64,000 nt of DNA from Nocardioides kongjuensis. Lineage in GTDB: Bacteria > Actinomycetota > Actinomycetes > Propionibacteriales > Nocardioidaceae. Where the stretch lies: assembly GCF_013409625.1 (NCBI RefSeq), contig NZ_JACCBF010000001.1, forward strand, positions 5,397,001-5,461,000, read 5' to 3'. Position 1 is the first letter of the stretch. Each line of letters begins with the position of its first letter. The translations under genes were made by a program, and so were the position numbers. The notes under the pieces are model-generated. The model saw nothing but the letters and a program-made list of their open reading frames with translations, was not told the origin of the DNA and ran no database searches. Below are positions 41,946 through 62,205 of the stretch, in pieces.

Positions 41946-41951
41946 GGCCGG

Positions 41952-43669: not shown

Positions 43670-45088
43670 TCAGCCGCGCGCCCGGGTGCGCCGGGCGAGC
43701 TCGGCCAGCGCAGCGGGGAAGATCGACGCGGGCGGGGTGACCAGGCCGGCGCCGACCTGGCCGACGCCGGCGACCTTGCCGGCCATGCCGGTGTTGATCT
43801 GCGGCAGGATGCCGGTCCGGCACACCGAGGTGACGTCGATGCCGGTGGCGGCACCGGCGAAGTCGAGGACCGGGATCGGCCAGCGGTTGTTCTCGCCGAT
43901 CGTGATCTCCCGCATCCGGCGGCTGGTGGCCAGCGCGTCGGGCACGGTGCCGCCGACGAACCGCACGATGGCGGGCGCGGCGGCCATGGCGAATCCCCCG
44001 ATGCCGGCGGTCTCGGTGATGGCCGAGTCGCCGATGTCGGGGTTGGCGTCGTCCGGGCCGTAGTCGCCGAGGAACAGGCCGTCGGCGAGCTGCGCCGGTC
44101 CGGTGAACCACTGGTCGCCGGTGCCGGAGACCTGGATGCCGAAGTCCGTGCCGTTGCGGGCCATCGCGACGACCATCGTCGAGCCGGGCACGTCGCGCGC
44201 GGCGTCGAGCGCGAGCTTGCAGGCCGGCATCGCGACGTTGAGGAAGAAGTGGTCGTTGCCGCCCATGAACGCGAACGCCTCGGCGACCTCCTCCGAGGAC
44301 CGCGAGGAGCGGACCATCGACGGCGCGATGTCGCGCAGCAGCATCAGGGTCCCGGCGCGGTTGCGGTTGTGCGCCTCGTCGCCCATCTGCAGCATCTGGC
44401 CGAGGATCGCGGTCGCGTCGACCGGACCCGCGGCGGAGACGGCCTCGCCGAGCAGCGGGCCGAGCACGTCGCGCATCCAGCGCAGCCGCTCCAGCACCTC
44501 GGGGCCGTAGGCGCCGTAGCGCAGCACCTTGCCGAGTCCCTCGTTCAGCGAGCAGTAGGTACGACGCCCCGTGGCCGGGTCCTCGAGGACGAACATCCAC
44601 ATCGACGGCGAGACCACGCCGGCCATCGGGCCGACCGCGCTGCGGTGGTGGCACGGCTCGAGGGACACGTTCGCACCCGAGGCGAACAGCGCCTCGGCGT
44701 CCTCCGGGTCCTCGACCAGGCCCTCGAAGGCGGCCGCGCCCATCAGCGCACCGCGCAGCGGGCCGGACGCGCGCGCCCACTCGATCGGCGGACCGGCGTG
44801 CAGGAACTGGCCCTTCTCGAGGCCGAGCAGCTCGGAGGCCGGCGCGACGCCGACGAGCATGGCCTGCACGTCGAGCATCCGGGAGACCGCGAGGGCGTTG
44901 GCGTCGCGGCGCAGCGGGTCGGCGGCCACGGTCGCGAGGTCGTCGGCGGTGCCGTCCATCGGCGGCTTCCACTCGACCCGCTCGACCGGCACGGCCTGGT
45001 TGGCCACGGCGGTGGCGAACATGTCGGCGCCGACCGCGGCGACGGCGGTGGGAGCGGTGCTGGGCAGGCTGACGGTTCGGGCGGTCAT
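43670..45088 (-). CDS. allG: AllG/YlbE family (DUF1116) carbamoyltransferase subunit
   Basis: A 472-residue DUF1116 protein. E. coli YlbE of this family has been assigned as AllG, one of three subunits of oxamate carbamoyltransferase, which splits oxalurate with phosphate into oxamate and carbamoyl phosphate. Seen: VEWKPPMDGTADDL near the start, LEPCHHRSAVGPMAGVVSPSMWMFV, GDEAHNRNRAGTLMLLR, FMGGNDHFFLNVAMPACK and VARNGTDFGIQVSG-like MARNGTDFGIQVSG. The ATG overlaps the allF stop as ATGA. No allantoin-pathway gene is nearby, so the true substrate may differ (see findings). Confidence 0.85.
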   Translation of the reverse strand: MTARTVSLPSTAPTAVAAVGADMFATAVANQAVPVERVEWKPPMDGTADDLATVAADPLRRDANALAVSRMLDVQAMLVGVAPASELLGLEKGQFLHAGPPIEWARASGPLRGALMGAAAFEGLVEDPEDAEALFASGANVSLEPCHHRSAVGPMAGVVSPSMWMFVLEDPATGRRTYCSLNEGLGKVLRYGAYGPEVLERLRWMRDVLGPLLGEAVSAAGPVDATAILGQMLQMGDEAHNRNRAGTLMLLRDIAPSMVRSSRSSEEVAEAFAFMGGNDHFFLNVAMPACKLALDAARDVPGSTMVVAMARNGTDFGIQVSGTGDQWFTGPAQLADGLFLGDYGPDDANPDIGDSAITETAGIGGFAMAAAPAIVRFVGGTVPDALATSRRMREITIGENNRWPIPVLDFAGAATGIDVTSVCRTGILPQINTGMAGKVAGVGQVGAGLVTPPASIFPAALAELARRTRARG

Positions 45089-46560
45089 CGGGCGGCTCCG
45101 TTCACGAGGGCGATCGCGCGGCGGGTGGCCGCGGCGTTGGACAGGTGGACCTCGGCGCCGGCGGCGGCGAGCGCCTCGGCCTGACGGGTGAGGCCCTGCG
45201 GGTCGGTCGACGTCCCGACGCAGGCGACGACGACGGGCACCTCGCGCACCGCGCGGGCAGCGGCGATCGCCGGGGCGAGCTCGGCGGCGGGGTCGTCCTG
45301 GGCGCCGTGACCGAGCACGACGTCCATCAAGATGACGGCGGTGTCGGGGTCGGCGGCCACCTTGGCGAGGTGCTCGAGGCGCAGCGTGGGGTCGATCATC
45401 GGGTGCGCCCGGCCGCGGGTGAGGCCGTCGTCGCCGAAGTCGATCATCACGTGGCCGTCGGCGACCAGGCTCGCGTCGAGCGCGAGCTCCGGCGAGAGCG
45501 GGATGTTGCTGCGGATGCCGCCGAGCTCGGCCGCGGCGAGCAGCATCGCCTCGTCGCACAGGGTGCCGCCGACGAACAGGCCGCGCAGCGCGGTGCCGCC
45601 GTCGGGGGCGGGGGCGGCGGGGGTGCCCCACACCGGCCACTCGGGCACGGCGACGCCGAGGTCGCCCAGCAGCGCCTCGGTCTGCGTGGTCAGGTCGGGC
45701 TGGCCCGCGCCGAGCAGCGCGAAGCGCACCGGCGTGCCGAGGTCGGCGGCGTACTTCTCGACGGCGGCGGCCACCTCGGCGGCCGGGGGCTTGGACACGA
45801 CGACGACGTGGCCGACCGAGGGGTCGGCGTCGAGGCGGTCCAGCGCGGTCCGGGTGGAGATGCCGCCGATGGCGGCGGACAGGTCGCGCCCACCGACACC
45901 GAGCGCGGCGGCGACGCCGACACCCGCGGCGTCGAGCAGCGCCAGGACCTGCTGGCAGCCGGTGCCGGACGCGGCGACGATGCCGACCTGCCCCGGCGTG
46001 ACGGTGTTGGCGAAGCCGAGGCCGACGCCGCCGACGACCGCCGTGCCGCAGTCCGGGCCCATCACGAGCAGGCCGCGGTCGCGCGCGAGCCGCTTCATCG
46101 CGAGCTCCTGCTCGACCGGCACGTTGTCGCTGAAGATCATCACGTCGACGCCGGCGTCGAGGGCGTCCATCGCCTCGACCAGGGCCGAGGCGCCGGGGAC
46201 CGACACCAGCGCCAGGTCGCCGCCCGCCCGGCGCAGCGCGGAGGCGGTGGTGCGTGGCGGCTCGGTGACCTCGCCGCCCGGCGAGCCCTTCCGGGCCGCG
46301 GCCAGGGCGGCGTCGACGGCGGCGAGCGCGGCAGCGAGCGCCGACTCGTCGTCGAGCCGCAGCGCCACGACCATGTCGTTGGTGCTGGTGGCAGGCAGCG
46401 TGAAGCCCATGCCCTGGAGCACCTCCACGTTCAGCTCGGTGGCCATCGCCACCTGGGCGGCGGCGACACCGGGGGTGGCGGCGACGTCCCGGCTCACCTG
46501 CAGCAGCGCGACGCTGTCGGCGTACGCACCGGGCCGGATCTCGACGTGCTCGATGGTCAT
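45085..46560 (-). CDS. allF: AllF/FdrA family carbamoyltransferase subunit
   Basis: A 491-residue FdrA homologue with a succinyl-CoA-synthetase-like fold. Seen: VEIRPGAYADSVALLQVSRDV, NVEVLQGMGFTLPATSTNDMVVAL, FSDNVPVEQELAMKRLARDRGLLVMGPDCGT (in two adjacent parts), VGIVAASGTGCQQV and GLFVGGTLCDEAMLLA. E. coli FdrA has been assigned as AllF of oxamate carbamoyltransferase. The start ATG overlaps the allH stop. Middle gene of the minus-strand unit allH-allF-allG. Confidence 0.87.
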   Translation of the reverse strand: MTIEHVEIRPGAYADSVALLQVSRDVAATPGVAAAQVAMATELNVEVLQGMGFTLPATSTNDMVVALRLDDESALAAALAAVDAALAAARKGSPGGEVTEPPRTTASALRRAGGDLALVSVPGASALVEAMDALDAGVDVMIFSDNVPVEQELAMKRLARDRGLLVMGPDCGTAVVGGVGLGFANTVTPGQVGIVAASGTGCQQVLALLDAAGVGVAAALGVGGRDLSAAIGGISTRTALDRLDADPSVGHVVVVSKPPAAEVAAAVEKYAADLGTPVRFALLGAGQPDLTTQTEALLGDLGVAVPEWPVWGTPAAPAPDGGTALRGLFVGGTLCDEAMLLAAAELGGIRSNIPLSPELALDASLVADGHVMIDFGDDGLTRGRAHPMIDPTLRLEHLAKVAADPDTAVILMDVVLGHGAQDDPAAELAPAIAAARAVREVPVVVACVGTSTDPQGLTRQAEALAAAGAEVHLSNAAATRRAIALVNGAAR

Positions 46561-47378
46561 CGAGTGCTCCCTTCAAGGGCTTCATGGATGGGGGAAACGG
46601 GAAGTGCGAGGTGGGCGCCGAGGAGCATCCCGGCGCCCGAGGTGTGGCCGACGGCCAGCAGTACGGCGACCGCGGCGGCCTCGCCCGTGGCGAGGACCGC
46701 GCGGAAGGGCGCGATCGCCTCGCCGGCGACCGCGTGGCGCAGCAGTGCGGCGGACAGGCCGGTGGTGCGGGGGAGGTGCGCCTCGACCGCCCCGGCGAGC
46801 GCGGAGGTGTCGCGCCCGGCCGCCCGGGCGGCGACCAGCCAGCCGGCCAGCACGTCGTCGCCGACCGGGGTGAGCCCGTCGCCGCGGCCCACCAGGGCGG
46901 GGACGGCGGCCGGGTCGCCGGCGGCGAGCAGGTCGAGGGCGTCGGCCGGCAGCTGGTCGCGGGCGGGGGACAGGTCGGCAGCGAGTGGGGGGAGGGAGGA
47001 AGCGAGCCGCGGGACCGCGAAGGAGACCAGGCGCGTCACCGCGACCGCCAGCGGCCCGACCCGCAGCAGGCCGTCGCCCACGACGACCGGGTCGCCCACG
47101 GCGACCTCGGGCAGCTCGGCGAGCGTGGTCAGCACGCCGCAGGGAACGTGCACCGCGCCCCGGGCGAGCACACCGACGACGCCGACGACACCGCCGACGA
47201 CACCGCCGACGACACCGCCGACGACACCGCCGACGACACCGCCGGCCGCGCCGCCGAGGTCGGCGTACACCGCCTGGCGCCCGGCGTGCACGACCACGCC
47301 GCTCACCGGTGGCTCCGCGAGCAGGGCACGCAGCGCCGGTGAACCGGCACCACCGACCGCTGAATCCACCCTTCGCAC
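46557..47378 (-). CDS. allH: AllH family (DUF2877) carbamoyltransferase subunit
   Basis: A 273-residue DUF2877 protein, the third subunit type of oxamate carbamoyltransferase. The conserved C-terminal half has LVGRGDGLTPVGDDVLAGWLVA and VGHTSGAGMLLGAHLAL. The N-terminal part carries an odd insertion of Gly-Gly-Val-Val repeats (about residues 45-70) encoded by a 12-base tandem repeat. GTG 47378 is chosen because minus-strand TAGCGT lies 7 bases upstream. First gene of allH-allF-allG, divergent from pucR. Confidence 0.82.
   Translation of the reverse strand: MRRVDSAVGGAGSPALRALLAEPPVSGVVVHAGRQAVYADLGGAAGGVVGGVVGGVVGGVVGGVVGVVGVLARGAVHVPCGVLTTLAELPEVAVGDPVVVGDGLLRVGPLAVAVTRLVSFAVPRLASSLPPLAADLSPARDQLPADALDLLAAGDPAAVPALVGRGDGLTPVGDDVLAGWLVAARAAGRDTSALAGAVEAHLPRTTGLSAALLRHAVAGEAIAPFRAVLATGEAAAVAVLLAVGHTSGAGMLLGAHLALPVSPIHEALEGSTR
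47181..47240. repeat. 12-base tandem repeat inside allH
   Basis: Five perfect head-to-tail copies of GCCGACGACACC, preceded by a degenerate copy. On the coding (minus) strand each unit encodes Gly-Gly-Val-Val, so copy-number change keeps the reading frame and alters only the length of a hydrophobic Gly/Val stretch. Confidence 0.9.
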
Positions 47379-47385
47379 TTCTGGG

Positions 47386-47406
47386 ACGCTAACGGCTGGG
47401 TAAGGT
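47386..47406. promoter_or_regulatory. Back-to-back promoters of allH and pucR
   Basis: Only 35 bases separate the two start codons. Minus-strand TAGCGT (47386-47391) lies 7 bases before the allH GTG 47378, and plus-strand TAAGGT (47401-47406) lies 7 bases before ATG 47414. Both mRNAs would be leaderless and each -35 region would fall inside the other gene. Confidence 0.5.
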
Positions 47407-47413
47407 GCATCGA

Positions 47414-48727
47414 ATGGTGAGCATTGCCAACGTCCGGGCAGAAGTCGGGCAAGAGTTGATAGCCACCGGCGGGGGCGGCATCCCGCACGATGGCGTCATG
47501 GACACGGAGGAGCTGGCCGAGGCGCTCGCCCAGCTCGTGCTGGCCGGGGCCGACCTCGGTGAGCTGGTCGCCGCGATCGGCGACGCCCTCGACGTGCACG
47601 TCGCGGTCACGACCACGGACGGCCGCGAGCGCGCGGCGCGCATCGACGACGCCATGCGCGAGCGGATCTCCGCGGCCGGGCTGACCGACGAGACCGGCCG
47701 GCTGCGGGTCGAGTGGCTGGGGGACCGGGGCGGCCACGAGGGCCAGCCGGTGGCCGGCGCCCACGTGCACCGCGAGCCGCTGGCCGCGCCCAACCAGGCC
47801 CTCGGCCACCTGGTCGCGGTGGCCGAGCACGGGATGGTGCCCCAGCAGGTCGTCGCGCTGCAGCGCGCGGCGACGGCCGTGTCGCTGTGGATCACCCGCG
47901 AGCAGGCGGTGTCCGCGGTGGAGAACAAGTACCGCGGTGACTTCCTGCGCGACGTGTTCCTCGGCCGCGCCGGCACCGACGACTTCGTCCGCGAGCACGT
48001 CGTCGGCTTCGGCTGGGACCTGAGCCGCCCGAGCGTCGTGCTCGCCGCGCAGATCGACCCGCAGCCGACGTACCAGGCCCCGGCCTCGGCCGAGGACCGC
48101 CGCCACTGGCAGGAGCGCTTCGCCAACGCCTGGCGCCAGGTCGCCGCCTCCGTCGACCGCGCCATCCCGATCGCCGACTTCGGCTCCGAGGTGGTGGCGG
48201 TGCTGCCGGCCGAGGACGCCGAGGCCACGGCCGCGCTCGTACGACGGCTGGTCGTCGCCGTCGCCGGTGACAAGGGCGGCGGGCGCCGTCCGTTCACCGC
48301 CGGGGTCGGCCGCGTGACGTCGAGCCCGTCCGGGCTGCCGGACAGCTACACCCAGGCGCGCCGCGCGCTCGAGGTCGGCAGGAGGTTCCGGGGACCGAGC
48401 ACGACCACCTGGTTCGACGACCTCGGCCTGCACCGGCTGATCGCGATGGTGCCCGACACCGAGGAGCTGCGGGCCTTCGCGCACGACGTGCTCGGTGAGC
48501 TGGCCGGCTCCTCCGAGGAGGCGGTCACCCTGCGCGAGACGCTGCAGGTCCTGCTCAACACCAACTTCAACGTGGCCGAGGCCGCGCGCACGCAGTTCTT
48601 CCACTACAACACGATGCGCTACCGGGTCGGGAAGCTCGAGCGGATGCTCGGGCCGGTCGCGTCGGACCAGAACCTGCGTCTCGACGTCGCCGTCGCGCTG
48701 AAGGTGCTCGAGGTCGTCAGCCGGTGA
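47414..48727 (+). CDS. PucR-family transcriptional regulator
   Basis: A 437-residue regulator. The C-terminus has the PucR helix-turn-helix pattern LRETLQVLLNTNFNVAEAARTQFFHYNTMRYRVGKLERMLG (spread over the last 75 residues); the middle is a GGDEF-like domain typical of CdaR/PucR proteins. The family controls purine and related nitrogen-compound catabolism. Its position between allHFG and the uracil permease-Mo hydroxylase genes makes it the likely local regulator. ATG 47414 fits TAAGGT upstream; ATG 47499 is an alternative start. Confidence 0.88.
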   Translation: MVSIANVRAEVGQELIATGGGGIPHDGVMDTEELAEALAQLVLAGADLGELVAAIGDALDVHVAVTTTDGRERAARIDDAMRERISAAGLTDETGRLRVEWLGDRGGHEGQPVAGAHVHREPLAAPNQALGHLVAVAEHGMVPQQVVALQRAATAVSLWITREQAVSAVENKYRGDFLRDVFLGRAGTDDFVREHVVGFGWDLSRPSVVLAAQIDPQPTYQAPASAEDRRHWQERFANAWRQVAASVDRAIPIADFGSEVVAVLPAEDAEATAALVRRLVVAVAGDKGGGRRPFTAGVGRVTSSPSGLPDSYTQARRALEVGRRFRGPSTTTWFDDLGLHRLIAMVPDTEELRAFAHDVLGELAGSSEEAVTLRETLQVLLNTNFNVAEAARTQFFHYNTMRYRVGKLERMLGPVASDQNLRLDVAVALKVLEVVSR

Positions 48728-48819
48728 CTGCCGCGGACGTCGTGATGACGGCGGTGTGAACCGGTCGGGAATCGCGGGCAACTTCCGCCAGCAGTTCCCC
48801 GGGATCCTTTGGCGAATGT

Positions 48820-48853
48820 GGCCAGTGAGGTGTGATCTGGCCCTCAATAGGTT
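48820..48853 (+). promoter_or_regulatory. Inverted repeat and -10 of the uracil-degradation operon
   Basis: GGCCAG (48820-48825) and CTGGCC (48837-48842) form a dyad with 11 bases between, directly upstream of TAGGTT (48848-48853), a probable -10. The dyad covers the expected -35 region, so a bound dimer such as PucR could control the permease operon. The remaining leader contains AGGAGGA before the ATG. Confidence 0.42.
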
Positions 48854-48916
48854 GGTGAGTCTCGGGAGCCCCTAGCGGGACCAGTGAGCACAGCCCCAGA
48901 TTCAGGAGGACTCAGC

Positions 48917-50281
48917 ATGTCGATGTTCAAGTGGGAGGTCGTGGATCCCGCGCCGGGCCAGCCGGTCGCGCCGAACCAGCGACTTCCGTGGGGTCGGACC
49001 GTAGGCCTGGGAGCACAGCACGTCGTCGCCATGTTCGGCGCGACGTTCGTGTTCCCGATCGTGATGGGCCTCGACCCGAACCTCGCCATCATGTTCTCGG
49101 GTCTGTGCACGATCGGCTTCCTGCTGATCTGCAACAACAAGGTGCCGAGCTACCTCGGCACCAGCGCGTCCTTCGTCGCCGGTGTGGCCGCCATCCGTGC
49201 GCAGGGTGGTGACTCGGCCGACGTCACCGGCGCGATCCTGGTCGCCGGCCTGGTGCTCGCCGCGATCGGAGTCGCCGTCCACTTCGCCGGCGCCGGCCTG
49301 ATCCACAAGATCCTGCCGCCCGCCGTCACCGGTGCGGTCGTCATGCTGATCGGCTTCAACCTGGCGCCCGTCGTGGCCGGCATCTACTGGCCGCAGGACC
49401 AGTGGATCGCGCTCGCCACCGCGGCGTTCATGGTCTGTGCCGCCGTGCTGCTGCCGGGCTTCTGGTCGCGGATCGCGGTGTTCCTGGCCCTCGTGTTCGG
49501 CTACGTCGCCTCCGTGCTCGCCGACAAGATCTTCGGCGCGATCACCTCCGTGACGCCCGTGTCGGGTGGCCAGGCCGTCGAGCACGACCGCGTCTCCTGG
49601 GCCGGCGTGAAGGCTGCCGACTGGATCGGCTTCCCGAGCGGCAAGCTCGCCGACGGCGTCTCGGTCGTCCACGGCCCGAGCTTCTCGATGACCTTCATCC
49701 TGCTCGTCCTGCCCGGCGTCATCGCCCTCATCGCCGAGAACACCGGCCACGTGAAGGCCGTCGCCGAGATGACCGGCGACAACCTCGACCCGTACATGGG
49801 CCGCGCGATCGCCGCCGACGGCGCCGCCACCGCGTTCGCCAGCGTCTTCGGCGGATCGCCGACCACGACGTACGCCGAGAACATCGGCGTCATGGGTGCG
49901 ACCAAGGTCTACTCCACCGCGGCCTACTACGTCGCCGGCGTCGTCGCGATCCTGCTCGGCCTGTGCCCGAAGTTCGGCGCGATCGTCAACGCCACCCCGG
50001 GCGGTGTCCTCGGCGGCATCACCGTCGTGCTCTACGGCATGATCGGCCTGGTCGGCGCCAAGATCTGGGTCGAGAACAACGTCGACTTCGGCAACCCGGT
50101 CAACATGGTCGGCCTCGCCGGCGGCCTGATCGCCGGCATCGGCGGCGTGACGCTCAAGATCACCGACGACTTCGAGCTCGGTGGCATCGCCCTGGGCACC
50201 ATCCTCGTCATCGTCTTCTTCCACCTCGTGAAGGGACGCTCCGTCGACGCCACTTCGGGAGAGGTGACCAAGAGGCTGTGA
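48917..50281 (+). CDS. Uracil-type NCS2 permease (UraA/RutG-like)
   Basis: A 454-residue nucleobase:cation symporter with about 14 hydrophobic segments. Seen: LGAQHVVAMFGATFVFPIVMG (the QH motif in helix 1), SFVAGVAAI, the Glu-containing IALIAENTGHVKAVAEMTG, and GGSPTTTYAENIGVMGATKVYS. The last motif matches UraA-type uracil permeases and not the xanthine/urate type. AGGAGGA lies 6 bases before ATG 48917. Its stop overlaps the next start (GTGA), so the transporter is coupled to the Mo-hydroxylase genes, which points to uracil or a close relative as their substrate. Confidence 0.88.
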   Translation: MSMFKWEVVDPAPGQPVAPNQRLPWGRTVGLGAQHVVAMFGATFVFPIVMGLDPNLAIMFSGLCTIGFLLICNNKVPSYLGTSASFVAGVAAIRAQGGDSADVTGAILVAGLVLAAIGVAVHFAGAGLIHKILPPAVTGAVVMLIGFNLAPVVAGIYWPQDQWIALATAAFMVCAAVLLPGFWSRIAVFLALVFGYVASVLADKIFGAITSVTPVSGGQAVEHDRVSWAGVKAADWIGFPSGKLADGVSVVHGPSFSMTFILLVLPGVIALIAENTGHVKAVAEMTGDNLDPYMGRAIAADGAATAFASVFGGSPTTTYAENIGVMGATKVYSTAAYYVAGVVAILLGLCPKFGAIVNATPGGVLGGITVVLYGMIGLVGAKIWVENNVDFGNPVNMVGLAGGLIAGIGGVTLKITDDFELGGIALGTILVIVFFHLVKGRSVDATSGEVTKRL

Positions 50282-51140
50282 AGCCCGCACCCTTCGACTA
50301 CGCCCGGCCGGGGACCCTGGAGGAAGCCCTTCAGGCCCTGGCCGGGCACCCGGAGGCCAAGGTCCTCGCCGGAGGACAGAGCCTCGTCCCCCTCCTCTCG
50401 ATGCGGCTGGCCGCACCGGCGGTGCTGGTCGACATCAACGACCTGCCCGACCTGGACCACGTCCGGGTCAGCGCCGACGGCGTCCGGATCGGCGCCCTCG
50501 CCCGGCACGCCGCGGTCCTCCGTGATCCCGACGTCGCCCGGGTGCAGCCGTTGGTCCCGCTCGCGCTGGCCAACGTCGCGCACGCGACGATCCGCAACCG
50601 CGGCACCACCGTGGGCTCGCTGGTCCACGCGGACGCGGCGGCCGAGATGCCGATGGTGCTGCGGCTGCTGGACGGCTCGCTCGACGTCGTCGGCCCCGGC
50701 GGGCGTCGTACGATCCCCGTCGCCGAGCTCTACGTCGGCCCGCTCGAGTCCAGCCTCCACCACGACGAGATCGCGGTCGAGGCGTTCTTCCCGGCGCTGG
50801 CCAAGCACACCGGGGTTGCGTTCGAGGAGATCGCCCGCCGGCACGGCGACTACGCCATGTGCGGTGTCGCGGCCGTCGTCACCGTCGACGGCGACCGGGT
50901 GGTGTCGGCCAGGGCCGGCTACCTCTCCGTCTCCGACATCCCGACCGTGGTCGACCTGACCGATGCCCTCGACGGCTCGATCAGCGACGCGTCGCTGGCT
51001 GCCGCCGCCGAGGTGGCGCTGGAGCAGCTCGAGCCGGAGACCGACATCCACGCGACGGCCGACTACCGCGCGCACCTCGCCCGGGTGCTGACCGCGCGGG
51101 TCGTGACCGCCGCCCACGAGAACGCACGGGAGGCACGCTC

Positions 51141-51144
<4 letters not shown>
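50278..51144 (+). CDS. Molybdenum hydroxylase FAD subunit (CoxM-like)
   Basis: Medium, FAD-binding subunit of a xanthine dehydrogenase-family enzyme; 288 residues. FAD contacts are visible in KVLAGGQSLVPLLSMRLA and RGTTVGSLVHADAAAEMP. It passes electrons from the Fe-S subunit to NAD or another acceptor. Start GTG 50278 overlaps the permease stop. I infer it belongs to a uracil/thymine dehydrogenase with the next two genes. Confidence 0.9.
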
Positions 51145-51637
<493 letters not shown>

Positions 51638-51641
<4 letters not shown>

Positions 51642-54028: not shown

Positions 54029-54657
54029 AGATCTCCGGTCAGAACACCATCGCCGCCCCCGTCGAGAAGGTCTGGGACGCGATCCTCGACCCGCGGGTCC
54101 TGGTCGCGACCATCCCCGGCTGCGAGCAGCTCGAGGCCACGGGCGAGAACGCCTACGCCATGACGGTCAGCGCCGGTGTCGCCGCGATCAAGGGGACCTA
54201 CTCGGGCTCCTGCCTGCTCGAGGACCTGCGGGCCGGTGACGGGCTGACCATGAAGCTGAAGGGCGCCGGCGCACCCGGCACCATCGACGCGACCGTGCTG
54301 GTGAGCTTCAAGGACGACGGCGGCCAGACCGTCCTGTCGTACGACGCCGACGCAGTCGTCGGCGGCATGATCGGCGGCGTCGGCCAGCGGATGCTGACCA
54401 GCGTCTCGCGCCGGATGGCCGCCGAGTTCTTCGGCAACGTGGAGAAGGTGATCGCCAACGGGCTGCCGACCGCGGCTGCCGGCGGCGCTCCGGTCGAGAC
54501 CGTGTCGGCCGAGGGGGCGCAGGTCTTCGCGGCCCCGGCCAAGGTCTCGTCGGTCCCCTCGGTGGGCGGGGAGTCGTTCCTCATGGGCGTGGCCGTCGGC
54601 GGTGGCCTCGTGCTCGCCGGCGTCATCGTGGGCGGGCTGCTGGGCCGTCGGCGATGA
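54025..54657 (+). CDS. CoxG-like SRPBCC-domain protein
   Basis: A 210-residue protein: residues 1-150 are a CoxG/SRPBCC domain (SGQNTIAAPVEKVWDAILDPRVLVATIPGCEQLE), then a Pro/Ala linker and a C-terminal hydrophobic helix (FLMGVAVGGGLVLAGVIVGGLLG) ending in RRR. In carboxydotrophs CoxG is thought to anchor the Mo enzyme to the membrane; a similar role here fits. GTG start overlaps the Mo subunit stop. Confidence 0.88.
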   Translation: MKISGQNTIAAPVEKVWDAILDPRVLVATIPGCEQLEATGENAYAMTVSAGVAAIKGTYSGSCLLEDLRAGDGLTMKLKGAGAPGTIDATVLVSFKDDGGQTVLSYDADAVVGGMIGGVGQRMLTSVSRRMAAEFFGNVEKVIANGLPTAAAGGAPVETVSAEGAQVFAAPAKVSSVPSVGGESFLMGVAVGGGLVLAGVIVGGLLGRRR

Positions 54658-54718
54658 ATCACCCCACGAAGCTCCTCTCCTCCGCTTCGCTCTCCCGAAC
54701 AACGTCGTGGGGACCCCG

Positions 54719-56104
54719 ATGATCTCGGTCGACTCGACCGCACGGGACCAGGCGGCCGCCGTACGGCGTCGCGAGATCTCGGCGCGCGAGCTCCTCGACC
54801 TCCACCTCGACCGCATCGCCGAGCGCAACCCCGAGCTGAACGCGATCGTCTCGCTCGACGAGTCGCGAGCACGTGAGGGGGCGCTGGCCGCTGACGAGGT
54901 GCTCGCCTCGGGCGCCGAGGTGGGAGCGCTGCACGGCCTGCCGTTCGCGTTCAAGGACACGCACGCAGTGGGAGGCTGGCGCACGACGTACGGCTCCACG
55001 GTGATGGCCGACAACGTGCCGGAGCGCGACGAGCTGATCGTCGAGCGGGTGCGCGCCGCGGGGGCCTTCACGATCGGCAAGACCAACGTGCCGGAGTTCG
55101 CGGCCGGGTCGCACACCTTCAACAAGGTCTTCGGCACGACCCTGAACCCGGTCGACCCCACCCGCTCGGCGGGCGGGTCCAGCGGGGGAGCGGCCTGTGC
55201 GCTCGCCGCCGGCATGGTCCCGCTCGCCGACGGCTCCGACATGGGCGGCTCGCTGCGCAACCCCGCGTCGTTCTGCGGCGTGGTCGGGATGCGGCCGAGC
55301 CTGGGCCGGGTGCCCGAGTGGCCGCTCTACAACCAGTGGGAGACCACGTCGGTCGGTGGTCCGATGGCCCGCAACGTGCGCGACCTCGCACTGCTGCTGT
55401 CGGTCATGGCCGGCCCGGACCCGCGGGCCCCGCAGGCGCTGGGGACGCCGGGCGCCTCCTTCGCGGACCCGGCCGCCGCATCGCTGGCCGGGCTGAAGGT
55501 CGCGCTCAGCGTGGACCTCGGCGGCGCGCTCGAGGTCGACCACGAGGTGGCCGCCGTCGTCGAGGCCGCCGGCCGTGCCCTCGCCGGTGCCGGGGCGGCC
55601 GTCGGCTCGGCGTACCCCGACCTGTCGCTCGCCGAGGACACCTTCCGGACCCTGCGCGCCTGGCACTTCCAGGCCAAGCTCGGCTCGCTGCTGGCCGAGC
55701 ACCCCGACGACTTCAAGCCGTCGCTGGCCGACAACATCCGTGCGGGGGAGTCGCTCACCGGCGCCGACGTCGCGCGGGCCTACACGCAACGCACCGCGCT
55801 GTCGGAGACGATGCGGGCCTTCTTCGGCGACCACGACGTCCTCGTGCTCCCGGTCTCCCAGGTCCCGCCGTTCCCGGCGACGCAGGAGTTCCCGACCGAG
55901 ATCAACGGCAAGCCGATGGCGACCTACCTCGACTGGATGCGGTCGGCGTACTTCATCACCGTCACGGGCTGTCCCGCCATCTCGGTGCCCTTCGGGACCA
56001 CCTCGTCGGGGCTGCCTGTGGGGGTCCAGCTGGTCGCCCGGCACGGCGCCGACCTGCAGCTGCTCGAGGTCGCGCTCGCCGTCGAGGAGCTGGCTGCTCG
56101 CTGA
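54719..56104 (+). CDS. Amidase-signature family amidohydrolase
   Basis: A 461-residue amidase with the full Ser-cisSer-Lys triad: Lys79 in FAFKDTH, Ser154 in AGGSSGGAA and nucleophile Ser178 in DMGGSLRNPASFCG (24-residue spacing as in malonamidase and FAAH). Family substrates range over many amides, including malonamate. In this cluster it could hydrolyse ureidomalonate or malonamate, the expected products after barbiturate ring opening. ATG 54719 is used; GTG 54707 is an alternative. It ends the operon before the repeat element at 56.1 kb. Confidence 0.88.
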   Translation: MISVDSTARDQAAAVRRREISARELLDLHLDRIAERNPELNAIVSLDESRAREGALAADEVLASGAEVGALHGLPFAFKDTHAVGGWRTTYGSTVMADNVPERDELIVERVRAAGAFTIGKTNVPEFAAGSHTFNKVFGTTLNPVDPTRSAGGSSGGAACALAAGMVPLADGSDMGGSLRNPASFCGVVGMRPSLGRVPEWPLYNQWETTSVGGPMARNVRDLALLLSVMAGPDPRAPQALGTPGASFADPAAASLAGLKVALSVDLGGALEVDHEVAAVVEAAGRALAGAGAAVGSAYPDLSLAEDTFRTLRAWHFQAKLGSLLAEHPDDFKPSLADNIRAGESLTGADVARAYTQRTALSETMRAFFGDHDVLVLPVSQVPPFPATQEFPTEINGKPMATYLDWMRSAYFITVTGCPAISVPFGTTSSGLPVGVQLVARHGADLQLLEVALAVEELAAR

Positions 56105-56127
56105 GCCCTGGTCGGTGTCGGGTCAGA

Positions 56128-56323: not shown

Positions 56324-56339
56324 CTCACTTGAATGTGAG
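56324..56339 (+). promoter_or_regulatory. Inverted repeat overlapping the hyuA -10
   Basis: CTCAC (56324-56328) and GTGAG (56335-56339) flank TTGAAT (56329-56334), which ends 7 bases before the hyuA ATG and could be its -10 in a leaderless transcript. A second dyad, GCCGATCCATCGGC, lies at 56281-56294. Both are candidate operators. Confidence 0.4.
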
Positions 56340-56341
56340 TC

Positions 56342-58420
56342 ATGACAGCGAGGCGGATCAGGATCGGCATCGACACGGGCGGCACGTTCACCGACGTCGT
56401 TGCCTTCGACGAGGACAGCGGTGAGGTCGTCACGACCAAGACCCCGAGCACGCCGGGGAACCCGGCCGACGGGTTCCTGGCGGGCATCGACAAGGTGCTG
56501 GGGATCGCGGGGGCGCAGTTCGACGACGTCGTCGCCGTCAGCCACGGCACCACGGTCGCGACCAACCAGCTGCTCGAGGGCAAGGTGGACGCGCTCGGGT
56601 TCATCACCACCGAGGGCTACGAGGCGATGCTCGAGATCGCCCGGCAGTCGGTGCCGGACGGCTACGGCAACTCGTACTTCTGGGTGAAGCCGGACCGGAT
56701 CGTGCCCCGGGACCTGGTCAAGGGCGTCGGCGGCCGGCTCGACTTCACCGGTGCGGAGATCCGCGCGTTCGACGAGGCGAAGGCCCGCGAGGTCGCCCGC
56801 TGGTTCAAGGCCAAGGGCATCGACACCCTGGGCGTCTGCTTCCTGCACGCGTACGCCAACCCGGCGCACGAGGAGCGGATGCGCGAGATCCTCGCCGAGG
56901 AGCACCCGGACGCCGTCGTCTCGATCTCCAGCGAGGTGCTGCGCGAGTACCGCGAGTACGAGCGCTCGATGACCACCCTGGTCGACGCCGCGGTCAAGCC
57001 GAAGCTGAGCCGCTACGTCAACAACATCAAGGACCGGCTCGCCGCGCAGAGCGGGCGGACCGTCCCGTTCTACGTGATGAAGTCCAACGGCGGCGTGCTC
57101 TCGGCCGACGAGGTCGTCCACCAGCCGATCACCACCGTGCTCTCCGGCCCGGCCGCCGGCGCCCTCGGTGCCGCGCTGATCGCCAAGGTCGCGGGCTTCG
57201 ACAAGGTGCTCACCTCCGACGGCGGCGGTACGTCGACCGACGTCTCGGTCGTCATCGACGGCGACCCGACGCTGACCACCGAGGGCAGCGTCGGCGTGTA
57301 CCCCTCCAAGATCCCGATGATCGACGTCGTCACCGTCGGCGCGGGCGGCGGCTCGATCGCCTGGCTCTCGCCCGAGGGCACCCTCAAGGTCGGCCCGCAC
57401 TCGGCCGGCGCCGACCCCGGCCCGATCTGCTACCGCAAGGGCGGCTCCGAGGTCACCATCACCGACGCCCACGTCTTCCTCGGCCGGATCCCTCCCCACC
57501 TGCTCGGTGGCGAGATCCCGCTCGACGTCGACGCCGCCAGCGCGGCGATCCAGCAGCTCGCCGGCAAGCTCGGCATCTCCGCCGAGGCCTGCGCCACCGG
57601 GATCCTCGAGATCTCCGCGTGGAACCAGGCCAACGCGCTGCGCCAGGTGACCGTCAAGCGCGGCCTCGACGTCCGCGACTTCACCCTCACCACCTTCGGT
57701 GGCTCGGGGTCGCTGCTGCTGTGCCGCCTGATGGACATCCTCAACGTCCCGACCGTGCTGGTCCCGCCGAACCCCGGCAACGTCTCGGCCTTCGGCCTGC
57801 TCACCGTCGACGTCAAGAACGACTACGTGCAGACCCACGTCGCGCTCCAGGAGAACCTGGACCCGGCCGACCTGCAGCAGGAGTACGACGTCCTCACCGC
57901 CCGCGCCGCCGAGGCGCTGAGCAAGGAGGGGTTCGCGCAGGCCGACCACGTCTTCGTGCGGACCGCCGACGTGCGCTACTTCGGCCAGGCCTTCGAGGTG
58001 CGCGTCGGCGTGCCGGACGGGCCGGTCACCGAGGACACCCTGGCCACGGTCGCCGAGCGCTTCCACGCCGAGCACCGCGTCCTCTACGGCTACGACTTCT
58101 CCGGCGACGCGTCGCAGCAGGTCGAGGTCGTCAACCTGCGCGTCTCCGGCGTGGGCCCGATCAAGCGCCCCGAGATCCTGCGCGCCGACGGTGCGAAGCC
58201 GGCGCCGCAGCAGACGGGCTCGCGCTCGATCTGCTTCGACGCCGAGGCGGGGTACGTCGAGACGCCGGTCTTCTGGCGCACCGACCTGCCCGCCGGCCAG
58301 GTGCTCACCGGCCCGGTGATCATCGAGGAGTTCGGCTCCACCGTGCCCATCCACCCCGGCTTCACCGCCCGGGTCGACGACTACGCCAACATCATCGTGA
58401 CGCGCTCGGAGGAGAGCTGA
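56342..58420 (+). CDS. hyuA: Hydantoinase/oxoprolinase A subunit
   Basis: A 692-residue ATP-dependent amidohydrolase subunit of the 5-oxoprolinase/N-methylhydantoinase A family. Seen: actin-like phosphate motifs GIDTGGTFTDVVAF and SDGGGTSTDVSVV, VSHGTTVATNQLLE, GPAAGALGAA and TVGAGGGSIAW, and the C-terminal VIIEEFGSTVPIHPGF. The family opens cyclic imides or lactams with ATP hydrolysis. It works with HyuB encoded next. The ring it acts on here is unknown; a barbiturate, dihydropyrimidine or hydantoin-like ring would fit the cluster. Confidence 0.93.
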   Translation: MTARRIRIGIDTGGTFTDVVAFDEDSGEVVTTKTPSTPGNPADGFLAGIDKVLGIAGAQFDDVVAVSHGTTVATNQLLEGKVDALGFITTEGYEAMLEIARQSVPDGYGNSYFWVKPDRIVPRDLVKGVGGRLDFTGAEIRAFDEAKAREVARWFKAKGIDTLGVCFLHAYANPAHEERMREILAEEHPDAVVSISSEVLREYREYERSMTTLVDAAVKPKLSRYVNNIKDRLAAQSGRTVPFYVMKSNGGVLSADEVVHQPITTVLSGPAAGALGAALIAKVAGFDKVLTSDGGGTSTDVSVVIDGDPTLTTEGSVGVYPSKIPMIDVVTVGAGGGSIAWLSPEGTLKVGPHSAGADPGPICYRKGGSEVTITDAHVFLGRIPPHLLGGEIPLDVDAASAAIQQLAGKLGISAEACATGILEISAWNQANALRQVTVKRGLDVRDFTLTTFGGSGSLLLCRLMDILNVPTVLVPPNPGNVSAFGLLTVDVKNDYVQTHVALQENLDPADLQQEYDVLTARAAEALSKEGFAQADHVFVRTADVRYFGQAFEVRVGVPDGPVTEDTLATVAERFHAEHRVLYGYDFSGDASQQVEVVNLRVSGVGPIKRPEILRADGAKPAPQQTGSRSICFDAEAGYVETPVFWRTDLPAGQVLTGPVIIEEFGSTVPIHPGFTARVDDYANIIVTRSEES

Positions 58421-58421
58421 C

Positions 58422-60419
58422 ATGTGCCTGAGCTGCCAGACCATCCACAACGGCGCCGCACCGGCCGACCACGCGCACGACACCCACACCGGCTCGCGCC
58501 GCGCGCCCACCCAGTTCCCGTTCGGGACCCTGACCGCCGACGCCGGCCGCAGCGCCGACCCGGTGCTCGTCGAGATCGTCCAGGGCTCGCTCGCCGCCGT
58601 CGAGCACGAGGTCGAGACCGCCATCGCGCGGACCAGCCGCAGCCCGATGATCCGCGACGCGCACGACTTCCGCGCCGGCATCCACGACCGGCTGCTGCGC
58701 AAGCTGACCGGCCGCTCCTACTCCGCGCTCGTGCACCCGGTCGCCCGGGACTTCCCGATCGAGGAGATGCAGGAGGGCGACGTCTTCTTCCACAACGACG
58801 TCTACCTCTCCGAGGGCGGCATCGGCCACCTTCCCGACCTGTGCGTCACCGTCCCGGTGTTCGCCGGCCTGGATGGGGAGCGCCGCGTCGTCGGCTTCAT
58901 CCAGGCCTTCGGGCACCACGACGACATCGGCGGCGCGGTGCCCGGCTCGATGCCCTCGCACGCCACCAGCGTGTTCGAGGAGGGCCTCGCGGTGCCCCCG
59001 ATCAAGCTGTGGGACGCGGGCGTGCCCAACAAGGCCGCGCTGCGGATCATGACCCGCAACTCCCGGATGCCCGAGTCGCTCGCCGCCGACCTCGACGCCG
59101 AGTGCTCGGCGTGCCTGATGGGTGCACGGCGCCTGGGCGAGCTGTTCGACCGCTACGGCATCGAGACCGTCGAGGCCTGCTTCGACGCCGTCATCGACCG
59201 CTCCACCGAGACCTACCGCCGCGAGATCCTCTCCAAGATCCCCGTCGGCAGCTGGACCTGGGAGGACTACGCCGAGCACGACGGCGTCGACGAGCCGCAG
59301 CTGCACACCCAGCGGATCACGCTGACGCGCACGGCTGCCGACGACCCCGAGGGCGAGCGGCTGATCCTCGACTTCGACGGAACCGGTCCGCAGGCCAAGG
59401 GCCCGATCAACCACTGCGGCGACTACTCCGACGGCGTCTTCCTCAAGAAGTGGCTCGCGCCGATCCTGCGCAACCTCGCCGACACGCCGGAGCGGATGGC
59501 CGAGCTCGACGTCAACGAGGGCGTGGTGCCGCTGATCGAGATGCGGTTCCCGCCGCCGGGCACGCTGCTCACGCCGGTCTTCCCGGCACCGACCAACGCG
59601 CGCACGTTCGTCATCCTGCGCCTGCTCGGCGTGCTCGCCGGCGTCATCGCCAAGGCGGTCGACGGCAAGATGCCCGCCGACCAGGAGACGATCCGCTACA
59701 CCGGCGTCTACGGCGAGGACCTCGACGGCCGCTCGTACCTCATGCGCGAGGTGCTCGGCGGCGGCTCCGGCGGTCGCTACTACGCCGACGGCGAGGACAC
59801 GATCCACGTCGTACCGGACTCGCGGAACCTCCCCACGGAGTTCACCGAGTCGCGCTTCCCGTTCGTGGTCGAGTCGCTCGGCCTCGCCATGGACTCCGGC
59901 GGCGCCGGCCAGTTCCGCGGTGGCCTCGGCTACGAGAAGCACATCCGGATGCTCAAGGACGCCAACTTCATGTCGATCGCCGACCGCTCGATCCTCGCCT
60001 GCTGGGGCGTCAAGGGCGGCAAGGCGGGCAAGCCGTTCCAGGTCACCATCGACCCGGGCGGCCCGAACGAGCGCGAGGTCGACGCCCTCGCCGACTCCGA
60101 GCCCGTCGTGACCGGCGAGACCATCCGGATCCGCACCACCGGTGGCGGCGGCTGGGGCAACCCGCTCGACCGCGACCCGGCGCTGGTCGTGCGCGACGTC
60201 GTGTGGCGCAAGGTCTCCGCGGCGTCAGCGCTCGACGACTACGGCGTGGTCCTCACCGGCTCGCTCGACGACGACACCCTCGGGTACGACGCCGACGCGA
60301 CCGCCGCCGAGCGGGCCTCCCGCCCGGTGCCCGCAGCCGACGACGCGTTCTTCGACCGCGGCCCCGGCTACGGCGTACTCGCCGGGGGCGCGACCGCCGC
60401 CGCGGTGGACGTGCTCTGA
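58422..60419 (+). CDS. hyuB: Hydantoinase/oxoprolinase B subunit
   Basis: A 665-residue HyuB partner. Core motifs: DPVLVEIVQGSLAAVEHEVETAI, RDAHDFRAGI, GDVFFHNDVYLSEGGIGHLPDL, FGHHDDIGGAVPGSMP, DFDGTGPQAKGPINH and SGGAGQFRGGLGYE. The first 35 residues are an extra Cys/His-rich piece (MCLSCQTIHNG ... HAHDTH) not usual for the family. GGAGGAGAG lies 7 bases before ATG 58422, one base after the hyuA stop. Confidence 0.93.
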   Translation: MCLSCQTIHNGAAPADHAHDTHTGSRRAPTQFPFGTLTADAGRSADPVLVEIVQGSLAAVEHEVETAIARTSRSPMIRDAHDFRAGIHDRLLRKLTGRSYSALVHPVARDFPIEEMQEGDVFFHNDVYLSEGGIGHLPDLCVTVPVFAGLDGERRVVGFIQAFGHHDDIGGAVPGSMPSHATSVFEEGLAVPPIKLWDAGVPNKAALRIMTRNSRMPESLAADLDAECSACLMGARRLGELFDRYGIETVEACFDAVIDRSTETYRREILSKIPVGSWTWEDYAEHDGVDEPQLHTQRITLTRTAADDPEGERLILDFDGTGPQAKGPINHCGDYSDGVFLKKWLAPILRNLADTPERMAELDVNEGVVPLIEMRFPPPGTLLTPVFPAPTNARTFVILRLLGVLAGVIAKAVDGKMPADQETIRYTGVYGEDLDGRSYLMREVLGGGSGGRYYADGEDTIHVVPDSRNLPTEFTESRFPFVVESLGLAMDSGGAGQFRGGLGYEKHIRMLKDANFMSIADRSILACWGVKGGKAGKPFQVTIDPGGPNEREVDALADSEPVVTGETIRIRTTGGGGWGNPLDRDPALVVRDVVWRKVSAASALDDYGVVLTGSLDDDTLGYDADATAAERASRPVPAADDAFFDRGPGYGVLAGGATAAAVDVL

Positions 60420-60438
60420 GGAACCACGGGAACCGACG

Positions 60439-61179
60439 ATGAAGGTCGCGATCCTCGGGGGATCCGGCAAGACCGGTCGCGCCGTCGGCGCGGCCCTGGC
60501 CCAGGCGGGCGTGGCGACACGCCCCCTGGGCCGGGCCGCGTTCGACGACCTGCCGGCCGCCCTGGCCGGCGCGGACGCCGTGCACGTGATCGCCCCCAAC
60601 CTGCACCCCGACGAGCCGGCGTACGTCGCCGCGGTGCTCGCCGCCGCCACCGAGGTCGGCATCGGCCGGGTGGGCTACCACTCGGTGGCCTCGCCCTACG
60701 TCCCCGCCATGCCGCACCACCTGGGCAAGGCCGTCTCGGAGGACCTGGTCCGCCGCTCCGGCCTGGCCTGGACGATCATCCAGCCCTGCGCCTACGTGCA
60801 GAACCTGCTGCCCGCCCTGCGCTCCGGCACCCTCGACGTGCCGTACTCCGTCGACACCCCGTTCGGGATGGTCGACCTGCACGACGTCGCCGCCGCGACC
60901 GCGGTCGTGCTCACCGGCGAGGCGCACGTCGGCGCGACGTACGAGCTCGGTGGGCCAGCCCTCGTCTCGATCGCGGACGTGGCCGCAGCAGCGGGTGTGA
61001 CCGCCCGCCGGGTGCCTGCCGGGAGCGACGTGCACCCGTGGCTGCAGGCGATGTTCGACTACTACGACGACCACGGCCTGCCCACCGGCGGTGTCCCGCT
61101 GGCCGCCCTGCTCGGTCGTCGGCCCGCCTCGGTCGCCGAGGTCCTGGCCCGTGATCTCGCTGCCGATCCCGGGGCGTGA
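60439..61179 (+). CDS. NmrA-like NAD(P)-binding protein
   Basis: A 246-residue atypical short-chain dehydrogenase: N-terminal VAILGGSGKTGRAVGAALAQAG for the dinucleotide, then HHLGKAVSEDLVRRSGLAWTIIQPCAYVQNLLP and a DVAAATAVVLTG segment typical of the NmrA/SDR5 group. No catalytic Tyr-x3-Lys is obvious, so it may be a sensor or a reductase. It is 19 bases after hyuB and likely in the same transcript. Role in the pathway unknown. Confidence 0.85.
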   Translation: MKVAILGGSGKTGRAVGAALAQAGVATRPLGRAAFDDLPAALAGADAVHVIAPNLHPDEPAYVAAVLAAATEVGIGRVGYHSVASPYVPAMPHHLGKAVSEDLVRRSGLAWTIIQPCAYVQNLLPALRSGTLDVPYSVDTPFGMVDLHDVAAATAVVLTGEAHVGATYELGGPALVSIADVAAAAGVTARRVPAGSDVHPWLQAMFDYYDDHGLPTGGVPLAALLGRRPASVAEVLARDLAADPGA

Positions 61180-61184
61180 GGACC

Positions 61185-61203
61185 GCTGGCAGGTGTTGCC
61201 AGC
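61185..61203. promoter_or_regulatory. Inverted repeat upstream of carbamate kinase gene
   Basis: GCTGGCA (61185-61191) and TGCCAGC (61197-61203) form a 7-base stem with a 5-base loop, in the 90-base gap after the NmrA-like gene. It may end the upstream transcript or be an operator for the downstream promoter. Confidence 0.4.
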
Positions 61204-61257
61204 CTTCTGCTCCGGAGTTGGCTGTTCCTCACGATGAACGAGGGTGATCCGGCTCAC

Positions 61258-61263
61258 TAGGTT
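61258..61263 (+). promoter_or_regulatory. Probable -10 (TAGGTT) of the carbamate kinase operon
   Basis: TAGGTT ends 6 bases before ATG 61270, without a ribosome binding site. Confidence 0.5.
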
Positions 61264-61269
61264 CGCTGC

Positions 61270-62205
61270 ATGAGGATCCTGCTGGCGCTCGGCGGCAACG
61301 CGATGACGTCCCCCGACGGCAAGGCCCGTCCGGAGGACCAGATCGCGGCCGCGACCGAGGCGATGGAAGCCGTGGCCGACCTGGTCGCGGCCGGTGTCGA
61401 CGTCGTCATCACCCACGGCAACGGGCCGCAGGTCGGCAACCTGCTCGTCAAGAACGAGCTGGCCGCCACCGTGGTCCCGCCCGTGCCGCTCGACTGGTGC
61501 GGTGCCCAGACCCAGGGCACCCTCGGCGACATCTTGATGAACGCCCTCGACGGCGCGCTCGCCGCCCGGGGCCTGACCCGGCCCACGGCCGCCCTGGTCA
61601 CCCGCACCCGGGTCGACGCCGCCGACCCGGCGTTCGCGAAGCCGAGCAAGCCGGTCGGTCGCTACCTGTCCGCCGACGAGGCGCGCACCATGATCGAGCA
61701 CGGCGAGACGTGGGAGGACCGCGGCGAGCGCGGCTGGCGGCGGATGGTCGCCTCGCCCGAGCCGCTCGAGGTCCTCGACGCCCCCGCCGCGGTTGCCCTC
61801 GTCGAGGCCGGCTTCGTCGTCATCGCCAACGGCGGTGGCGGCATCCCGACCGTCCGCAACACCGACGGCAGCCTGGCCGGCGTCGAGGCGGTCATCGACA
61901 AGGACCTGGGTGCCGCCCTGCTCGCCCAGGCGATCGAGGTCGACCTCCTCGTCATCGCCACCGACGTCGCGCACGCCGTGCTCGGCTTCGGCACCCCCGA
62001 GGCCGCCGACATCGGTCAGGTCAGCCTCGACCAGATGCGGAAGTACGCCGCCGACGGCCACTTCGCCGGCGGCTCCATGGGCCCGAAGGTCGACGCGGTG
62101 TGCCGCTTCGTCGCCAGCTCGGGTCGCCGCGGCGTCATCACCGACCTCGGCAGCATCCTCGCGGCCGCCGAGGGCCGCGCCGGAACCATCGTCACCCCCA
62201 ACTGA
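61270..62205 (+). CDS. Carbamate kinase
   Basis: Transfers phosphate from carbamoyl phosphate to ADP, giving ATP and carbamate (which decays to CO2 and NH3). The protein has 311 residues with LLALGGNAM at the start, [41 protein letters not shown] and [14 protein letters not shown], all typical of ArcC/AllK. No arginine deiminase or ornithine carbamoyltransferase gene is near, so its carbamoyl phosphate should come from the allHFG-encoded enzyme. It precedes the ring-opening amidohydrolase gene by 23 bases. Confidence 0.95.

Follow-up and report, generated by a model that had tools for sequence, protein, structure and literature searches.

A pyrimidine-catabolic gene island of Nocardioides kongjuensis with a proposed phosphorolytic last nitrogen step

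A stretch of 64,000 nucleotides from the single-contig 5.67 Mb genome of Nocardioides kongjuensis (C1:5397001-5461000; in the following, the window) carries in its right third a pyrimidine island, in which genes for a barbiturase and a carbamate kinase are accompanied by allH, allF and allG, the genes for the three subunits of a transcarbamylase of the AllFGH type. Judged from sequence, the best explanation is a pyrimidine-catabolic island with a phosphorolytic last nitrogen step, to which we give a probability of roughly 0.78. Nucleosides would be imported, deaminated and split, uracil would be oxidized to barbiturate by a three-subunit molybdenum hydroxylase, and barbiturase would open the ring of barbiturate to give ureidomalonate, an acylurea acid that is one CH2 longer than oxalurate. 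AllF-AllG-AllH would then convert ureidomalonate and inorganic phosphate to malonamate and carbamoyl phosphate, of which carbamoyl phosphate would yield ATP via carbamate kinase and malonamate would be cleaved to malonate and ammonia by a lineage-dependent amidase, the candidate here being the amidase at 54.6-56.1 kb. It should be noted that we infer the substrates of the hydroxylase, of AllFGH and of the amidase as well as the direction of flux.

Both the phosphorolytic route and the route via urea would have malonate, two ammonia and carbon dioxide as end products, with the phosphorolytic one gaining one ATP. If the proposal is correct, uracil oxidation in the cluster-bearing actinobacteria (22 of the 396 phylum genomes sampled) saves one ATP per ring and runs through malonamate rather than urea, so that urease is not required. 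Many genes of the FdrA, DUF1116 and DUF2877 families that occur beyond the enteric bacteria would also be assigned a function, the AllFGH transcarbamylases, a family identified only recently, would act on more than one substrate, and a molybdenum enzyme named aerobic CO dehydrogenase (group 5) by an NCBI model would in these clusters be a pyrimidine oxidase. Several distant families of the phylum share this gene set. Among the matches listed from the open-licence literature, no published description of a phosphorolytic pyrimidine branch was found.

Genes of the proposed route

An earlier note on this DNA had assigned allH-allF-allG (43670-47378) to the oxamate carbamoyltransferase family, and this is borne out by Pfam and by the match of AllF to its closest solved structure, E. 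coli FdrA. The three subunit families are encoded together, with identities to the E. coli proteins of 38% (AllF), 47% (AllG) and 37% (AllH, over 136 residues), and since there is an ATGA stop/start overlap at both the allH/allF and the allF/allG junction, the three genes very probably form a single operon. Within allH, at 47180-47244, lies a perfect 12-base tandem repeat of 5.4 copies that codes for a Val-Gly-rich stretch. A carbamate kinase was indeed found where the note had placed it, at 61270; it scores 295 bits with NF009007 (cut-off 266) and 322 bits with TIGR00746, under the cut-off of 358, and is 40% identical to E. coli AllK. Its end is separated by 23 bases from the start of the barbiturase gene.

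Barbiturases of Group VI in the AtzD/Bar family are described by the signature Asn194, His324, Lys328, Val348 and Ser/Ala349 (PMC3758960). The window protein has all five residues (N194, H324, K328, V348, S349) and scores 666 bits with PDB entry 5hwe, 'Barbiturase', versus at most 311 with the cyanuric acid hydrolase entries. It also scores above the cut-off of the NCBIfam cyanuric acid model NF052395 (470 vs 360); an identity as cyanuric acid hydrolase was rejected on the basis of the 5hwe score and the Bar residues, and by the tests available the predicted barbiturase is genuine. The Bar positions read NHKV followed by S, G or A in 146 of 156 loci, which include some duplicate stretches of one genome, and otherwise in 10. 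No barbiturase was found in the viral contigs searched.

The molybdopterin subunit of the hydroxylase scores 1525 bits with NCBIfam NF040766 'CODH_aero_grp5' (cut-off 950). True CO dehydrogenase has the motif AYxCSFR; the motif in the window protein is PYRGAGR. Because of this motif and of the barbiturase in the same cluster, the protein is probably a pyrimidine oxidase that is misnamed by NF040766. A second molybdenum hydroxylase gene set, 36-55% identical to the first, lies past the window end (756-4518 of the stretch C1:5461001-5481000, L285). The coordinates of the island genes are given in Table 1.

Table 1. Genes of the island and its surroundings, by position in the window
Feature	Position	Strand	Basis of assignment
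ABC importer, nucleoside (Bmp/nup) type	37815..41764	-	Pfam BPD_transp_2, ABC_tran, Bmp
Importer permease	37815-39026	-	
Importer ATPase	39023-40576	-	
Importer Bmp binding protein	40676-41764	-	
Cytidine deaminase	41595..42386 (listed ORF)	+	Pfam dCMP_cyt_deam_1 above cut-off
Pyrimidine-nucleoside (thymidine) phosphorylase	42383..43669	+	Pfam Glycos_transf_3, PYNP_C, Glycos_trans_3N
allG	43670..45088	-	PF06545 E 4e-96 (scored on longer ORF 43670-46585)
allF (FdrA-like)	45085..46560	-	Ligase_CoA, CoA_binding; PDB 3dmy E 6e-68
allH	46557..47378	-	PF11392 E 5e-19
PucR-type regulator, divergent from allHFG	47405..48727	+	GGDEF_2 + HTH_30
Uracil/xanthine (NCS2) permease	48884..50281	+	Xan_ur_permease E 7e-65
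Molybdenum hydroxylase FAD subunit (proposed uracil/thymine oxidase)	50278..51144	+	FAD_binding_5, CO_deh_flav_C
Molybdenum hydroxylase 2Fe-2S subunit	51141..51641	+	Fer2_2, Fer2
Molybdenum hydroxylase molybdopterin subunit	51638..54028	+	MoCoBD_1/2, Ald_Xan_dh_C (longer ORF 51284-54028)
CoxG-like protein	54025..54657	+	COXG E 4e-24
Amidase-signature enzyme, candidate malonamate amidase	54602..56104 (start 54602-54719 uncertain)	+	PF01425 E 2e-104
hyuA, hydantoinase/oxoprolinase A (ATP-dependent family)	56342..58420	+	PF01968, PF05378, PF19278
hyuB, hydantoinase/oxoprolinase B	58422..60419	+	PF02538 E 5e-134
NmrA-like NAD(P)-binding protein	60439..61179	+	NmrA
Carbamate kinase	61270..62205	+	AA_kinase; NF009007 above cut-off
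Barbiturase (predicted: barbiturate to ureidomalonate)	62229..63335	+	PF09663 E 2e-142 on ORF 61497-63335

The importer is likely to supply nucleosides, and the real start of the cytidine deaminase gene is probably nearer 41.9-42.0 kb. The top NCBIfam models for the NCS2 permease are RutG and uracil permease, both under their cut-offs.

Distribution, gene order and AllG phylogeny

A survey of barbiturase-positive genomes for AllG, which the earlier note had suggested, found the two together in the order as well as in the phylum. Among 245 genomes of the order, 59 have a PF09663 protein and 69 have AllG, AllG being present in all 59 PF09663-positive genomes versus 10 of 186 negatives (Fisher 1e-46; genomes of the same genus are not independent, so that the Fisher values overstate the case and are not a measure of independent events). 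The stricter count is 58/58, since in G241, one of the 59, the sole PF09663 protein is divergent (213 bits, residues SSKGS) and AllG falls outside the main clade described below. PF09663 and AllG share a contig at 56 of 61 PF09663 places in the order, 5.9-39.5 kb apart. The phylum sample of 396 genomes includes 27 with PF09663, 49 with AllG and 22 with both, with AllG in 22/22 genomes whose barbiturase shows the NHKV residues vs 27/374 others; in 17 of the 22 the two genes are on one contig, 2.7-43 kb apart, and in 13 of these 17 they are within 10 kb. AllG was not found in the five other phylum genomes with PF09663 (G334, G465, G475, G476, G580), whose PF09663 proteins, one of which is truncated, show RTRGG or else Phe at position 194. 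For 30 of the 61 order places (all NHKVS) and 27/27 of the phylum the assignment uses the Bar residues themselves, for the remaining order places the score. Since the co-occurrence is far beyond chance, a chance adjacency of allFGH and barbiturase was rejected.

A better argument than the p-values is the change of gene order between families. For example, in three families (f19, f42, f50) the genes follow each other on one strand in the order barbiturase, permease-like gene, carbamate kinase, allH, allF, allG, hydroxylase (FAD, FeS, Mo) and coxG; this operon is complete in L241, L242, L246 and L252 and partial in L243, L245, L247, L248, L249, L251, L253 and L254, while L244 has a different order and L250 is without carbamate kinase. 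The permease-like gene of these operons is 27-31% identical to the window permease. A cytosine-deaminase-like amidohydrolase is found in clusters L247, L254 and L252, and a carbon-nitrogen hydrolase in L252. Among the gap open reading frames of other clusters (10 run out of 13 listed), Pfam identified 9 of the 10 as AllH; the tenth, in L147, was probably in the wrong frame.

Closer to the window, 80 named loci were compared, which are the best 80 of 537 barbiturase relatives and therefore favour close relatives, the closest by barbiturase being Pimelobacter simplex and Nocardioides daeguensis. In 74 of the 80, barbiturase is preceded on the same strand by carbamate kinase at a distance of 12-156 bases. 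The exceptions are L121, L142 (an incomplete stretch), three Rhodococcus loci and L107, where carbamate kinase is found 8 kb downstream of barbiturase.

The phylogeny of AllG points in the same direction. The rows of the tree came from 30 of the 74 order AllG places, taken as loci, and from later stretches, after removal of identical rows and of six loci, whereby one AllG (G170/G260, L042/L157) was lost altogether. In this quick tree, with SH-aLRT as the only support measure, one clade (SH-aLRT 96) takes up 68 of the 98 rows, the window AllG among them, and each of these 68 stems from a PF09663-positive genome; the window AllG does not group with the characterised E. coli enzyme, which is outside this clade, as is the second AllG copy in the window genome. 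Two AllG positions also differ between the clade and the other rows: position 288 is Pro in 82 of 86 clade rows (duplicates included) vs Ala in 22 of 23 others, and position 340 is Leu in 82 of the 86 vs Phe in 19 of the 23. A like comparison of AllF, with 34 usable rows, yielded a single position and is given no weight. The AllG of L175 (G241) adjoins E. coli AllG in the tree; this locus (7059-16734) has allF-allG, two carbamate kinases and the divergent PF09663 protein, possibly for another acylurea route.

The sister group of the main clade consists of five rows from PF09663-negative genomes. Three of these loci (L261, L262, L265) show the order hydroxylase-hyuA-hyuB-allF-allG, with no PF09663 match in their genomes, in which HyuAB may replace barbiturase as the ring opener, and the genomes of these three (G316, G419, G441) have a carbamate kinase (42-44%) on other contigs; the remaining two rows come from short contigs that carry a permease. 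These loci bear on the possibility that AllFGH phosphorolyses another acylurea of the same route, either the methyl homologue derived from thymine or a product of HyuAB instead of that of barbiturase, as does the finding that every one of the 38 genomes tested, Rhodococcus included, has HyuB, with best matches of 72-95% identity. However, each AllG row of the main clade is from a PF09663-bearing genome, and Rhodococcus has kept HyuB without AllG or carbamate kinase, so that HyuAB does not track AllFGH. We regard this possibility as quite unlikely for the window. A methylmalonyl-CoA mutase-type gene at 29694-31463 could bear on methylmalonate derived from thymine or be a coincidence.

The amidase, urea and the Rhodococcus lineage

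In Rhodococcus the phosphorolytic genes are missing. AllG was searched for in the genomes of 40 of the 80 named loci and is present in 36, those without it being three of Rhodococcus/Rhodococcoides and one 2.6 Mb metagenome-assembled genome (MAG); carbamate kinase is present in 36 of 40 genomes searched for it, with none at E 1e-20 in the three Rhodococcus genomes and in G562. The search of the three Rhodococcus genomes was genome-wide and found neither AllG nor carbamate kinase (E 1e-20), whereas barbiturase, permease, PucR, hydroxylase, coxG and hyuAB are kept (in Rhodococcus sp. IEGM 1409 the cluster is split over two contigs and the FAD gene is outside the stretch read). An absence of HyuAB from Rhodococcus was rejected after genome search and wider stretches had found it there, in R. 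erythropolis with hyuA about 10 kb and hyuB about 12 kb from barbiturase; AllFGH and carbamate kinase are therefore the missing ones among the genes compared. Because the Rhodococcus barbiturase is nested among barbiturases of AllG-positive genomes, the pattern suggests that AllFGH and carbamate kinase were lost jointly.

In all three Rhodococcus clusters the gene directly after barbiturase encodes an amidase. Ureidomalonase was reportedly found in R. erythropolis. An amidase 41-43% identical to that of Rhodococcus stands beside coxG in the window, and it could thus be argued that this enzyme is a ureidomalonase, forming malonate and urea from ureidomalonate, and that AllFGH is accessory or an alternative branch. 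This would agree with the published pathway, which is described as barbiturase followed by ureidomalonase to malonate and urea (PMC3758960), and with the urease of the window genome. But the window does not have the Rhodococcus arrangement, in which the amidase is beside barbiturase and AllFGH and carbamate kinase are absent. Moreover, a close orthologue of the window amidase is absent from 33 of 39 genomes while AllG and carbamate kinase are found in nearly all barbiturase genomes other than Rhodococcus, and the Rhodococcus amidases, the nearest outside group in the amidase tree, are set apart by a long branch of their own (1.33).

Urease tells against a general release of urea, too. It is present in 3/3 Rhodococcus genomes; in 37 AllG-positive genomes, several of them drafts or MAGs, there are 8 strong matches, 2 weak ones and 27 cases without a match (p 0.03, the genomes not being independent), and urea would therefore probably be a dead end in these 27. 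A similar pattern in enteric bacteria is noted by Kim and Kim, with E. coli O157:H7 as an exception (PMC11326118). Taken with the points above, a ureidomalonase function of the window amidase seems unlikely to us.

If the phosphorolytic reading is correct, the amidase is needed for malonamate, and here the earlier note, which had referred to malonamidase, finds weak support. The window protein is a generic amidase-signature enzyme that scores at most 86 bits with malonamidase E2 chains and 171-207 bits with GatA, urethanase and biuret hydrolase chains. Homologues are found in 16 of 39 genomes at E 1e-70, and of the 80 named loci, 23 have within their 10-kb flanks an amidase match of at least 40%, 20 at 58-94% and three (Rhodococcus) at 41-43%; most of the AllG/barbiturase-positive genomes tested are without a close orthologue. 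Some lineages may use the window type of amidase to cleave malonamate. In Intrasporangiaceae no candidate for a malonamate amidase was seen among the few neighbouring genes examined. Two further loci (L257, L258), both from genomes without an AllG match, have a divergent AtzD/Bar-like protein (39-40%) adjoining an amidase; in L257 a molybdenum hydroxylase is a neighbour as well.

The fate of malonate is hinted at by genes for CoA-transferase III and a fused carboxyl-transferase near barbiturase in several genera, including Rhodococcus, Janibacter and Aeromicrobium (L080, L113, L127 and L130), which are likely to serve a route from malonate via malonyl-CoA to acetyl-CoA; with tblastn, neither was found in the window or in the 20 kb that follow it.

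The idea of the earlier note that AllFGH and carbamate kinase act after barbiturase is thus strongly supported, as a prediction from sequence, by co-occurrence, operons, the AllG clade and the joint absence from Rhodococcus. Besides the kinship of the genomes, several points weigh against it. All activities of the pathway proteins are predicted. The Rhodococcus contrast is that of one lineage with three genomes, and in N. kongjuensis, which has urease, urea would not be wasted. The malonamate step is not conserved, an amidase orthologue of at least 64% being found in 6 of 39 genomes (G000, G245, G253, G276, G257, G260). The fifth signature position is Gly in 10 of the 22 phylum NHKV barbiturases (Ala in 7, Ser in 5), the published signature having Ser/Ala. 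The 2.6 Mb MAG (G282/L119) has barbiturase with adjoining carbamate kinase and no AllG match, G562 has AllG and no carbamate kinase match (E 1e-20), and in an Arachnia genome (G260) carbamate kinase adjoins the second AllG rather than barbiturase. Finally, AllFG of the sister clade stands with hydroxylase and HyuAB, without barbiturase and with carbamate kinase elsewhere in the genome, and may therefore have a substrate different from that of the main clade, which is the main loose end.

With these points in mind, we consider it reasonably probable that among barbiturase-bearing actinobacteria the phosphorolytic version of the oxidative pyrimidine pathway is both the older and the more common, that the urea-releasing one, using amidase and urease, is a Rhodococcus derivative after joint loss of AllFGH and carbamate kinase, and that these two form a general module for acylurea phosphorolysis that is combined with various ring-opening enzymes.

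Oxalurate and related systems

The AllFGH of E. coli is described as an oxalurate/oxamate carbamoyltransferase that was assayed in reverse because oxalurate was unavailable (PMC11326118). Could the window complex simply serve purine (allantoin) catabolism as a normal oxalurate phosphorylase, its place in a nucleobase island being incidental? The protein family is the oxalurate one (PMC11326118). The statement of the earlier note that no allantoin-pathway gene is present holds for the window, in which E. coli AllB, AllC, AllD and AllE gave no tblastn match at E 1e-6, but not for the genome: a whole-genome look for allantoinase, which the note had recommended, found one (561 bits, C1:721660), and close to it a HIU hydrolase, an AllE-like gene (31%) and malate synthase. 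Yet Ldh_2 (PF02615), the family of the known oxalurate-forming dehydrogenase AllD, has no match in the whole genome, and the known source of oxalurate is therefore missing. Furthermore, the main AllG clade has rows only from PF09663-positive genomes, and the operons of other families have allFGH intermixed with barbiturase and hydroxylase. Elsewhere in the phylum one allFGH set does adjoin an AllD homologue (54%; L268), its identity to the window set being lower. We consider oxalurate as the physiological substrate very improbable; by elimination, and by its chemistry as an acylurea acid, ureidomalonate is most likely the substrate of the window AllFGH.

Elsewhere in the window genome, at C1:882.9-888.5 kb (about 6911-13476 of L005, which is C1:876001-895000), allFGH occurs a second time, together with another carbamate kinase. 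This set belongs to a different AllG clade, is without barbiturase, and is accompanied by a gene for a luciferase-like monooxygenase, a further one being at L005:2611-4212; an amidase 51% identical to that of the window lies about 8 kb away (C1:873.7 kb).

Oxamic transcarbamylase and AllK of E. coli (EC 2.1.3.5, EC 2.7.2.2) have the same subunit families and carbamate kinase as the window, and both would be expected to act on an acylurea with a terminal carboxylate. The neighbours are AllB/C/D/E in E. coli but barbiturase and molybdenum hydroxylase here, and the AllG clade is another. With the oxidative pyrimidine pathway of Rhodococcus erythropolis the island has barbiturase, hydroxylase, coxG, HyuAB, permease and PucR in common, the differences being those described above. 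Comammox Nitrospira has allFGHK beside triuret/biuret genes, which is the same AllFGH-carbamate kinase module by a route for organic nitrogen; there, however, biuret/triuret hydrolase genes take the place of barbiturase, and the module is termed oxalurate degradation genes (PMC12625717). The ureidoglycine carbamoyltransferase of Rubrobacter xylanophilus is described as likewise catabolizing a ureide by phosphorolysis, with an adjoining carbamate kinase gene, but it is a pseudo-ATCase of the classical transcarbamylase family that acts on allantoate (PMC4016543).

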